The translations under genes and the position numbers were made by a program. Positions 16,207-24,178 of a stretch of DNA of 41,127 nt are shown piece after piece. Within the stretch, counting starts at the first letter, position 1, and each line of letters opens with the position of its first letter. The stretch is from Sphingobacteriales bacterium. GTDB lineage: Bacteria; Bacteroidota; Bacteroidia; Chitinophagales; Chitinophagaceae. Where the stretch lies: positions 1 through 41,127 of the forward strand of contig JAHEZE010000018.1 of assembly GCA_023251235.1 (NCBI GenBank), in the 5' to 3' direction. A model generated the notes under the pieces. That model saw nothing but the letters and a program-made list of their open reading frames with translations, was not told the DNA's origin and ran no database searches.

Positions 16207-17070
16207 TTAATTTCCGAATTGTCCGCCTGCATTTATCCAGTTTACAATTGCATCTCTGTTTGCCTGGTTTAGACCTGCTGTAGGAGGTGGAGGCATTTGG
16301 TTAACTGTTCCAAAATTATTTACTGCCCTTTCCTTAATTCTGTCCCTGTTAGCAACGATATTACAATCTATTGTAAAGTCAATACCACCGGTTGGGGCAG
16401 GAGACACATGACAACCGGGAACAGCACAATTAGCCTGGATGATCGTTTTAACAGCTGAGAATAACGAGCCGGGAGGGGTGGATGCAACAGTAACACTCGT
16501 AGTTTTTATACATCCTCCTGCTTCTTTTGCACCTACAGTAAAAGTGTTAGCCGTTAAATTATTAAATGTTGGCGAAGCCTGGAATGCACCACCATTAATA
16601 TTAAATGTAAATCCGCTACCACCGCCGCTTGTTGTAATTGTGATGGAACCATTAGGAGTAGTGGCGCAGGGTGTAGCAGATACAGAAGTTCCCCCAACAG
16701 AAAAAGTAACAGTGGTACAGGGGTCATTTGCATTTATAGTAAAAGATGCAATGCCGGTACAACTATTACTGTTTTTAGCTGTTACTGTATAAGAACCTGC
16801 TGCCAGCCCGGTAAAATTTCCTGAAGACTGAAAGGCTCCGCCATTGATGCTGAAAGTGAATCCTGAACTACCGGTTGCTGAGGCAGAAATACTTCCATCA
16901 TTTATTCCGGCACCAGATGTATTATTAGTAGTGCCGGTAACAATAATAGTAACGCCACTGCAAGGGTTAGGTACACCTCCACCGCCTCCTTTACTGCCAC
17001 AGGACTGAAATAATGCTGCGAAAATTATAAAACCCAAAAGAAAGAAATAGATTGAATTTTGTGATTTCAT
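16207..17070 (-). CDS. SprB-repeat lipoprotein with C-terminal cytochrome c-like domain
   Basis: A 287-residue predicted lipoprotein: signal peptide with C24 as the likely lipidated cysteine (FQSC), then a glycine run. Two SprB-type repeats follow, about 37-113 and 116-196, each with FTFxINGGAFQ and a later TxxAKxxxxC segment. The C-terminal 85 residues hold CAVPGCH (215-221), a heme-type motif with four residues between the cysteines, and QMPPPP (M259 as a possible axial ligand), ending DAIVNWINAGG as in Bacteroidota c-type cytochrome-like domains. Heme attachment with a CX4CH spacing is unusual and unproven. It is probably anchored in the outer membrane or facing the periplasm. SprB repeats are known from gliding adhesins, but nothing here links the protein to gliding. 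Confidence 0.75.
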   Translation of the reverse strand: MKSQNSIYFFLLGFIIFAALFQSCGSKGGGGGVPNPCSGVTIIVTGTTNNTSGAGINDGSISASATGSSGFTFSINGGAFQSSGNFTGLAAGSYTVTAKNSNSCTGIASFTINANDPCTTVTFSVGGTSVSATPCATTPNGSITITTSGGGSGFTFNINGGAFQASPTFNNLTANTFTVGAKEAGGCIKTTSVTVASTPPGSLFSAVKTIIQANCAVPGCHVSPAPTGGIDFTIDCNIVANRDRIKERAVNNFGTVNQMPPPPTAGLNQANRDAIVNWINAGGQFGN

Positions 17071-21516: not shown

Positions 21517-22590
21517 TTAATTTAATTCTAGTATTTCAAAAACTGATTTTCTTATTTGAACAAGATTTTTTGGAGTGTTACATAAGATGACGTAGAAGAT
21601 TTTTTTATCCGGAATCCATACATAATCTGCCCTGAATCCTCCCTGTGAGCCGGTATGTCCAACGATTCGTTGATTTTCAAAATTTGTTATGAACCAACAA
21701 AGCCCCAAAACAGATGAAACACTGTCATTCCAGTTTTGATGTGGAAATATAGTTCTTGACTTTGCAATCCAAATGCTATCCAGGAAAATATTTTTTTGTA
21801 TAGCCTGTTCATATTTCCAAAGCTCATCAACACTGCTCCAGACACCGCCATTACCGGCTGCAGCAAACGTTGGCTCTTCACCATAGTCTTTTTCAAAATA
21901 TTTATTACCATCAAACAAATAGCCATGTGATACTCCTGTTTCAGGATATGGTCCGTCTGTGATAGTGGAAGTTTTCATTCCGGCCGGTTCAAAAATTAAT
22001 TGCTGAATGTATTTCTGCCATTTCATGCCGGTTACTTTTTCAATAATAAGTGCAAGACCATTGAATGCGGGATTAGAGTAATGAAATTTTTCGCCTGGTT
22101 CAAATTCAAGGCTTGTATCTAGTTTTATTGGCGCCCAATTTTCTTCATCTTTTGCCGTAAGATAAAAAACACTGTCTTCTGTAATCTTTCTGCTGTCAGG
22201 CAAACCGGAAGTATGAGTCAACAGGTGGTAGATTTTTATTTTCCTGGCTATTGAACTGTCTTTAAAGTCCGGAAAATATTTATAAAGGTCATCATTCAAT
22301 AAAAGTTTATTTTCTTTTGCCAGCTCTAAGATGCCGAAAGCAACGAATGTTTTACTGATAGATCCAATATTAAAAAGAGTTTGCGGGGTTATGGGTTCTT
22401 TAGCATTGATATCAGCTAATCCAAATCCTTTCTGGTAAATAATATTTCCATCTTTTGCAATCAATATGGCTCCACCAGGTTCATTTGATTTGAAACTGGA
22501 ATCAAATAGTGTATCCAGTTTTTTTTCCAGCGGCTTTTTTTCAGTACAACTGAATAATAATATCAATATGGATAACAGGCATATTTTCAT
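21517..22590 (-). CDS. Class C beta-lactamase-like serine hydrolase, lipoprotein
   Basis: A 357-residue protein of the beta-lactamase / D-alanyl-D-alanine carboxypeptidase-like serine hydrolase family. The signal peptide ends in a lipobox (LFSC, C15). The catalytic SxxK is S77-I-S-K80, the YxN motif is Y171-S-N173, and HTGSQGG near residue 317 is the third (KTG-like) motif. The fold is likely that of a serine peptidase/esterase acting in the periplasm; true beta-lactamase activity is not implied. First gene of a minus-strand run (hydrolase, MmcQ/YjbR, sterol desaturase, membrane protein). A decayed copy of its first 25-30 codons lies 831 bp to the right (23329-23421). Confidence 0.92.
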   Translation of the reverse strand: MKICLLSILILLFSCTEKKPLEKKLDTLFDSSFKSNEPGGAILIAKDGNIIYQKGFGLADINAKEPITPQTLFNIGSISKTFVAFGILELAKENKLLLNDDLYKYFPDFKDSSIARKIKIYHLLTHTSGLPDSRKITEDSVFYLTAKDEENWAPIKLDTSLEFEPGEKFHYSNPAFNGLALIIEKVTGMKWQKYIQQLIFEPAGMKTSTITDGPYPETGVSHGYLFDGNKYFEKDYGEEPTFAAAGNGGVWSSVDELWKYEQAIQKNIFLDSIWIAKSRTIFPHQNWNDSVSSVLGLCWFITNFENQRIVGHTGSQGGFRADYVWIPDKKIFYVILCNTPKNLVQIRKSVFEILELN

Positions 22591-22845
22591 ATGTTTTAAT
22601 TTTAATAGAGGTCGTTTTTAAAAAATCAGCATTGAAAAACTATACTTACGATTTTAAAGTTAAAGAAAATGATTGTAGTCAAACCAATTCAATAGCCTGT
22701 ATTACAAACGGGTATCTTCCAATCATCCCTTTTATCGGTGTAATACTTTAATAATGGTGGAAAAGAATTAGCCTCCTAAAACAGTTTAGTTCTTTAAATT
22801 TCTTAGATTAGAATGTTATTAATTTTTTTACCTAAATCAACTGTT

Positions 22846-23274
22846 ATGAATTCTTCAAAATTTTTTATCGGAGGTATTATTGGCGGCGTAGCAAACTTCT
22901 TATTAGGATGGTTAGTTTGGGGAATGTTACTTATGAATTTTATGAAAGAACATTCTTCCGAAGCAAGCAAGGCGGTAATGAGAGCTGACGATGATGTAAT
23001 ATGGTGGGCATTGATCGTAGCAAATCTATTCGCAGGCTTTTTGCTTTCATACATCCTGAAGAAGGCAGCGGTCAGTTCTGCAAGCGCCGGTGCATCTACC
23101 GGAGCCGTTGTAGGGCTATTAATATCAGCATCTATTAACTGCTTTAATTATGCCTTCATGAACCTAAGCGATACCACTGCAATGTTAACAGATATGGCAG
23201 CTAGCCTTGTTGTAACAGCAATTGTTGGTGGCATTATCGGCTGGTATTTCGGAATGGGTAAAAAAGCCGCCTGA
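22846..23274 (+). CDS. Glycine-rich four-helix membrane protein, paralogue 1
   Basis: A 142-residue protein with four predicted membrane helices (about 5-29, 52-71, 79-104 and 118-138), rich in Gly/Ala. The pattern vaguely resembles DUF1761-type small membrane proteins, but the family is not certain. The ATG at 22846 is used because it aligns exactly with that of the paralogue at 23675; the upstream ATG at 22813 lies in the conserved leader. The two proteins share the N-terminus (MNSxKFxxGGIxGG), a VWW/IWW segment, and the C-terminus GMGKKAA, but differ strongly in the middle. Function unknown. A terminator follows. Confidence 0.75.
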   Translation: MNSSKFFIGGIIGGVANFLLGWLVWGMLLMNFMKEHSSEASKAVMRADDDVIWWALIVANLFAGFLLSYILKKAAVSSASAGASTGAVVGLLISASINCFNYAFMNLSDTTAMLTDMAASLVVTAIVGGIIGWYFGMGKKAA

Positions 23275-23297
23275 TTAGAAAATAATTTACTTTATCG

Positions 23298-23323
23298 AAA
23301 GGCCCTTTATGGGCCTTTATTTT
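23298..23323 (+). terminator. Intrinsic terminator after paralogue 1
   Basis: Stem AAAGGCCC (23298-23305) / GGGCCTTT (23311-23318) with a 5-nt loop, then a T-rich tail. The same stem core follows paralogue 2. Confidence 0.85.
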
Positions 23324-23328
23324 TCTTT

Positions 23329-23421
23329 TTAAATGAGTACAGATATTCCAGTTTTTTCCACCGGTGTTTTACAGGTGCAACTGAAAAATATTCTCACTAA
23401 AAATGTCAGGCATATTTTCAT
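23329..23421 (-). pseudogene. Truncated 5' remnant of the serine hydrolase lipoprotein gene
   Basis: On the minus strand an ATG at 23421 opens 30 codons: MKICLTFLVRIFFSC then TCKTPVEKT, followed by a stop at 23329. The intact hydrolase begins MKICLLSILILLFSC then TEKKPLEKK. The signal peptide, lipobox cysteine and first mature residues are clearly homologous, and similarity ends at the duplication junction next to the terminator of paralogue 1. It is best explained as a fragment carried along by the tandem duplication. A short expressed lipopeptide is possible but not supported. Confidence 0.8.
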
Positions 23422-23674
23422 ATAGGCTGTTTTATATTAGGCATTGTTAAAAATTCATCAGTTAAAAGCGGCAGTATAATTGTAAAGCAAAGGAAAATGA
23501 CTTTAGTCAAATCAATTCAATAGCCTGTATTACAAACAAGTATCATCTAATCATCTCTTTTATTAACGTAATTCTATAATAATGGTGCAAAAGAATTAAC
23601 CCGCTAAAACATTTTAGTTCTATAAATTTCATAGATTAGAATGTTATTTATTTTTTTTACCAAAATCAACTGTT

Positions 23675-24088
23675 ATGAACTCAAACAAATTTTTACTCGG
23701 CGGAATTGCCGGCGGCATCGCTTTCTTTGTTTTGGGCTATGTTTTTTATGGAATGGTTTTTAAAAGTTTTTTTGATGAAAATGGCATGGTTGTCAATATG
23801 GATAGTATGGTATGGTGGGCAATGATTGCAGGAAATTTGGCCTATGGTTTTTTGCTTGCCTTTGTTTTAGGTAAAGCAAATGCCTCAACTGTTGCTGGCG
23901 CAGCGGGGATCGCCTTAGTAGCAGGGTTATTACTGGCATTGTATTTCGATCTTACTATGTATGCTATTGGACATGGATTGACTACAATAAAAGCCCTTTG
24001 TGCTGATGTTGCATTAAGTGCAGTATTATCAGCCATAACCGGAGCTGTAGTTGGTTGGGTTTACGGTATGGGTAAAAAAGCCGCCTGA
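23675..24088 (+). CDS. Glycine-rich four-helix membrane protein, paralogue 2
   Basis: A 137-residue membrane protein with the same four-helix plan as the gene at 22846: MNSNKFLLGGIAGGIAFFVLG at the start, MVWWAMIAGNLAYGFLLAFVLG in helix 2, a third Gly/Ala-rich helix and GAVVGWVYGMGKKAA at the end. The middle is much diverged (roughly 40% identity overall by eye), and a loop after helix 1 differs in length and charge. The leader is far better conserved than the protein. Function unknown. No other gene of the duplication is intact in this copy. Confidence 0.75.
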   Translation: MNSNKFLLGGIAGGIAFFVLGYVFYGMVFKSFFDENGMVVNMDSMVWWAMIAGNLAYGFLLAFVLGKANASTVAGAAGIALVAGLLLALYFDLTMYAIGHGLTTIKALCADVALSAVLSAITGAVVGWVYGMGKKAA

Positions 24089-24105
24089 TTAGAAAAAAGA
24101 TTTTT

Positions 24106-24130
24106 AAAAGGCCCTTCCCGGGGCCTTTTT
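24106..24130 (+). terminator. Intrinsic terminator after paralogue 2
   Basis: Stem AAAAGGCCC (24106-24114) / GGGCCTTTT (24121-24129), 6-nt loop, continuing into a T-run. Confidence 0.88.
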
Positions 24131-24178
24131 TATTGGCAAAATAAAATATACATTGTTTAAAATTCATAATTATAATAG

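Follow-up and report, generated by a model that had tools for sequence, protein, structure and literature searches.

We find that two small membrane-type genes, U1 and U2, which lie head-to-tail in a 41,127-nt stretch of DNA from a Sphingobacteriales bacterium (hereafter the window), share an upstream leader that is far more alike between the two copies than the proteins encoded behind it, and that the coding cores and their flanks appear, on comparison of the sequences, to have different histories, the cores being the older. The explanation that we consider probable on balance is that a segment of about 830 bp was duplicated in tandem and that one coding core was then swapped for that of a divergent homologue while the leader was kept.

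The two units are each about 830 bp long and repeat with a near-constant offset. Divergent to U1 lies an intact serine hydrolase gene (21517-22590, minus strand, 357 aa) of the Beta-lactamase PF00144 family (hmmscan E 9.7e-57), the 5' end of which (22521-22590) falls inside the duplicated unit and is identical to 23352-23421 at 53 of 70 positions in a MAFFT alignment. The hydrolase start occurs twice, complete before U1 and, before U2, as a truncated ORF of 30 codons that ends in a stop (23329-23421, minus strand) and is recognized by its alignment similarity. This truncated copy still keeps MKICL...FSCT as an open frame, which may be a lipoprotein-like start. A spacer (22591-22664; 44/71 aligned positions identical) separates the hydrolase start from the conserved leader, which occupies 22665-22850 (plus strand) in unit 1 and, by alignment and with an approximate left edge, 23493-23674 (plus strand) in unit 2. 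U1 (22846-23274, plus strand) encodes 142 amino acids and U2 (23675-24088, plus strand) 137, with 43% identity between the proteins. A terminator-like stem-loop, in which an 8-pair stem is followed by a T run, stands 3' of U1 (23298-23318, plus strand), and a terminator-like repeat (24107-24131, plus strand; repeat family D12, 76%) stands 3' of U2. The latter is unflagged by our terminator scan, which reports one site versus a shuffle mean of 1.8, a count that is not significant by itself.

Hydrophobic sequence suggests a membrane location, and the AlphaFold2 model of U1 has four long helices (mean pLDDT 85), for which no solved structure was matched at E <= 0.001. U1 resembles the Pfam family DUF1761 (PF08570) over nearly the whole profile (positions 4-123 of 123; E 1.8e-6), but at 28.6 bits it stays below the gathering cut-off of 31, as does U2 (E 0.13, 13.0 bits). 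Six of seven scanned relatives match the same profile (E 0.003 to 2e-7), five of them with fewer than 31 bits; L015 alone passes (31.7), and L014 has no match. NCBIfam gave no match at E <= 0.1 for U1, U2, L012 or L013, and no title on the function of DUF1761 stands among the literature matches listed. The GC contents of U1 (0.42) and U2 (0.41) are slightly above the window mean of 0.37, without a clear foreign signature.

An earlier note on this DNA had claimed that the leader is better conserved than the gene, and exact alignment bears this out: 22693-22845 and 23521-23674 are identical at 133 of 153 aligned positions (86.9%, one gap), versus 227 of 411 (55.2%) for the whole coding sequences. 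Coding and leader identities of similar size, which the note had named as grounds against its claim, are thus not what the alignment gives. Relative to the middle of the coding sequence (172/339 identical), the leader differs at p = 1.4e-15 (Fisher); the coding end, 23239-23274, is identical at 31 of 36 positions. The conserved block proposed in the note is real but longer than claimed. Segmentation of the MAFFT alignment by BIC, for which five segments are best (1018.0) and six come close (1019.1), lets it start near 22665 and end 5 nt inside the gene. Identities are 64% for 22500-22664, 88% for 22665-22850, 52% for 22851-23253, 100% for 23254-23282 and 55% for 23283-23340, and the six-segment model puts the left edge of similarity between the units at about 22521. 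The 29-nt segment on the plus strand (29/29 identical) is a second conserved block, overlooked earlier, that holds the last six codons, the stop and the following 8 nt, so that the coding sequence has a breakpoint at each end. When pairwise alignments were compared with 200 dinucleotide shuffles per segment, the leader (86.9% versus a shuffle maximum of 72.2%) and the coding tail with its 3' UTR (86.2%, 56/65, versus 77.4%) stand well above the shuffles, and the hydrolase remnant exceeds them by a narrow margin (75.7% versus 73.3%). Both the spacer (62.0%; shuffle mean 56.5%, maximum 72.1%) and the coding core (59.4%; maximum 61.5%) fall within the shuffle range at the DNA level.

The coding middles do not look as if they had diverged since the present duplication. 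NG86 estimates for the cores of U1 and U2 are dS 2.95 and dN 0.58, the dS being near saturation and hence so imprecise that a value of this size says merely that the divergence is old, and of the 21 four-fold sites that they share, 8 are the same. In trees, U1 groups with L012 (Terrimonas) and L022 (same genus), and U2, which belongs to another subfamily, groups with L013 (a Sphingobacteriales MAG). Support for these groups is 95/83 and 100/98, respectively, in a first tree, the bootstrap of which had not settled, and 98/97 and 99/96 in a second tree built from U1, U2, 13 relatives of the first set and, of the seven tandem pairs described below, five. U1 and U2 as sisters are rejected (lnL difference 76.7, AU p = 1.2e-5). 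The first trees and the AU test cover the homologues found earlier, to the exclusion of later ones; L017 and L018 (identical to L013 and L012) and the fragment L045 were left out of the trees, and the long-branched L011 was left out of the AU test. The U1/U2 split is deeper in the tree than that between U2 and L013 (dS 1.08). Ranking by dS is weak, given that L012 versus L013, a U1-type and a U2-type gene, has a dS of 1.19, hardly more than that of U2 versus L013, and that U1 versus L012 and U1 versus L022 are beyond saturation; as a result, separate ancestry rests mainly on the tree. The flanks have no recognizable homologues outside the U1/U2 pair, so that a flank tree is not possible. That the cores might be of different and older ancestry than the flanks they share was not among the options offered in the earlier note.

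Divergence (K) between the units is 0.14 in the leader, 0.29 in the hydrolase remnant and 0.58 in the spacer. The leader is therefore about four-fold less diverged than the spacer (p = 3.6e-5, Fisher), although its difference from the remnant is borderline (p = 0.051); remnant and spacer compare at p = 0.058. Because a spacer at shuffle level lies between two similar blocks, uniform neutral decay alone cannot explain the leader, for which either constraint or local conversion is needed. The proposal of a shared regulatory element holds up in part: a promoter or operator acting at the DNA level is plausible from the K values of leader and spacer, with the borderline comparison to the remnant in mind, and the leader is probably a retained shared promoter region of both genes. 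A sigma-70 scan finds six sites versus a shuffle mean of 7.8 and hence no excess, Bacteroidota promoters being outside the model of that scan. The other part of the proposal, a structured RNA or riboswitch encoded in the leader, is hardly credible: the length and conservation of the leader would suit it, but the folding z-scores are -0.06 and -0.71, the two copies fold differently and have no stable common fold, and Rfam gives no match at gathering cut-offs. A search of Rfam at E <= 1 returned STnc130 over the end of U2 (23970-24097; E 0.24, 26.4 bits versus a cut-off of 55), which we took as chance.

Searches for further copies of the leader covered the window's own genome and its relatives. 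The own genome gives 36 matches at E <= 10, among which the two units alone fall below 0.02 (the next has E 0.024), and the idea of a dispersed repeat was discarded. In nhmmer searches with single-sequence queries, the leader does not rise above the inclusion threshold in 41 loci that include the nearest relatives of U1 and U2. Samples of 6 genomes from the genus, 394 from the family and 396 from the order, which overlap and each count the own genome, yielded no convincing copy outside it (the best two first-look candidates per genome being scored for family and order), and a plasmid search was negative at E <= 1e-5; leader searches of this kind are insensitive to short operator sites. The earlier note had held that unrelated leaders in other genomes would speak against its reading and, within the sensitivity of the searches, the relatives' loci of each gene indeed carry no recognizable copy. 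Seven other genomes in the order sample have leader matches of 21-37 nt (E 1.7e-5 to 9e-4). Those in L076, L080 and L082 contain exact 18-mers, but none leads into an ATG in the manner of the leader, and they were rejected. Close to where the leader ends, some 55 nt (22786-22840, minus) show an 80% match to the minus strand of a G314 coding end (IDLGKMNGILLKKLEELTL), the matches in that genome sitting inside two coding ends (L046 and L047). This likeness may be chance, the DNA being AT-rich and 394 genomes having been searched, or an old gene relic; the window's own genome gave no match to the G314 protein end. No close strain occurs among the six genus genomes, own included.

The protein itself is carried by 44 of 394 family genomes (own included) at E <= 1e-20 and by 75 of 396 order genomes at E <= 1e-10. 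The window's genome alone among the 44 carriers has more than one match, the third (G000:C122) being distant, and so the U1/U2 pair looks local. DUF1761-like genes do recur as close tandem pairs in another family of the order. Eight adjacent pairs were fetched from it, one of which is a fused ORF of 288 aa (L088), and the other seven (L084-L087 and L089-L091) are tandem pairs with 45-72% protein identity. These pairs are tandem genes like U1 and U2, but they differ in having no upstream similarity above the best of 200 shuffles (one ties), compared with 277 versus 54 for the window pair. Intergenic regions are only 28-109 nt long in five of the seven, which makes the upstream test weak for those; gaps are 28-177 nt in six pairs and 516 nt in one. 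L089 is the opposite of the window, its proteins being 72% identical and its upstream regions unlike. Such recurrence is suggestive of two unlike DUF1761-like copies that may work together, perhaps as a heterodimer.

Gene order in relatives places both types of gene, U2-type in L013 and U1-type in G168, in one syntenic neighborhood. In L013, homologues of the window genes at 16207, 17182, 18545 and 19408 are followed by the U2-type gene and then by the hydrolase, the 3' end of which faces the U2-type gene, so that the hydrolase is on the other side of this gene than in the window. The same-genus genome G168 has a U1-type gene after a homologue of 16207, and the Terrimonas genome has one between homologues of 30764 and 32114. 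Local recombination is therefore plausible, although its direction is not given by these arrangements. Another genome of the genus yields no more than a C-terminal fragment of the gene (L051, 9874-10014; G093:C18:41273-41413), some 1.3 kb from the homologue of 16207 and with another ORF between; it may be a copy that has decayed close to the conserved site.

Duplication followed by core exchange would best account for these observations. A segment of about 830 bp, reaching from inside the divergent hydrolase gene through the upstream region and the membrane gene to the terminator, would have been duplicated in tandem, leaving a truncated hydrolase start before the second copy. Recombination through the conserved ends would then have exchanged one copy's core, beginning a few bases past the start codon and ending about six codons short of the stop, for that of an older, divergent homologue. 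Since then the leader would have changed about four-fold less than the spacer, most simply as the promoter region of both genes, and two different four-helix membrane proteins would probably now be under the same control. The layout of the repeats, the breakpoints and the separate placement of the cores are directly shown, whereas the order of events, the direction of exchange, the promoter function and co-expression we infer. The near-constant offset, the truncated hydrolase start and a breakpoint at either end of the gene argue for this account, as do a core dS near saturation set beside the much smaller K of the flanks, the separate placement of the cores with rejection of a sister grouping, the seemingly local occurrence of the pair, the shared neighborhood of both gene types in relatives, and the fact that the window pair exceeds its shuffles upstream when none of the seven other tandem pairs does. 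Nevertheless, the sampled genomes include none that is intermediate (with two like cores, or with the window leader before a single core), a donor whose flanks match is not known, and recombination between cores that are about 50% identical requires short homologous ends. Moreover, selection on the leader alone would equally be expected to leave a breakpoint very close to the start codon, and the position of the hydrolase in L013 is unexplained by core exchange. A spacer at shuffle level also misfits a simple recent duplication with uniform decay unless extra constraint on the leader, or its conversion, is added.

Gene conversion confined to the flanks, one of the options in the earlier note, stays as the main rival, doubtful but to be taken seriously. 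U1 and U2 would be old tandem paralogues whose leader, 3' end and hydrolase start were later homogenized while the cores escaped. Non-sister cores near saturation within similar flanks, a diverged core set between two distinct blocks of high identity, and the existence, elsewhere in the order, of another family with old tandem pairs of such proteins would all fit such a history. It requires several events, however; a second match at E <= 1e-20 is absent from all 43 other carriers of the family sample, and U1 and U2 do not group with the a and b members of the five tandem pairs in the tree. An old duplication of which purifying selection has kept the leader, as promoter or operator of both genes, and little else is a rather unlikely alternative. 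The K values of leader and spacer, and a spacer at shuffle level, are as it would predict, but it leaves aside the likeness of the 29-nt 3' block and, narrowly above shuffles, of the hydrolase remnant, and it sits badly with cores that are not sisters and with relatives' loci of each gene that lack such a leader, where short operator sites could nevertheless escape the search.

That the tandem is an assembly artefact, two strain variants of one locus having been joined, is very unlikely. The assembly is in 181 contigs and the units do behave as variants of one locus, but no exact repeat within the window that touches the junction (23319-23351) exceeds 12 nt, the 29-nt stretch that is the longest exact match of the two units lies away from it, and each unit carries a terminator-like repeat of its own. 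That positive selection drove the proteins apart once the duplication had occurred, the rapid change that the earlier note had envisaged, is highly improbable and is not borne out: the 43% protein identity is low enough for it, yet dN/dS is about 0.2 (NG86, with near-saturated dS), and the two proteins fall into separate subfamilies with the sister grouping rejected.

If a core was indeed exchanged after the duplication, stronger conservation of a leader than of its gene can stem from a coding part that is older than the duplication rather than from fast evolution, and the truncated hydrolase start gives the locus a rough yardstick of its own. Among DUF1761-like proteins, about which little is known, the pair would add a second, local route to tandem pairs beside the close pairs in another family of the order. 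The window pair most likely reflects a known kind of event, of which it is an uncommon example, with an ordinary type of cause and a clean pattern. A more speculative and, we think, unlikely extension is that the coding sequence is an exchangeable cassette, with leader and last codons selected as docking ends between which cores are swapped among diverged homologues, two proteins thereby coming under one control. In the portions of the published accounts on which we draw, the closest parallel is offered by esaG and tipC, tandem type VII secretion immunity genes that are interpreted as recombining through DNA blocks of high similarity (PMC9484751). In tipC such blocks lie near the start and the end with a variable part between, whereas in esaG two blocks are internal and a third spans the end of the gene and the intergenic region after it (PMC9484751). 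As far as those descriptions go, the U1/U2 pair resembles these arrays in kind, being likewise made of head-to-tail paralogues with high-similarity end blocks and a variable core; it differs in having two copies only, an upstream leader as its main conserved block and no toxin partner seen. Horizontal regulatory transfer, or intergenic switching, in which one gene has unlike upstream regions in different strains (PMC5890482, citing Oren et al. 2014), is alike, so far as that account describes it, in that upstream region and coding sequence have different histories, but in the window it is unlike genes that have the same upstream region, within one genome.
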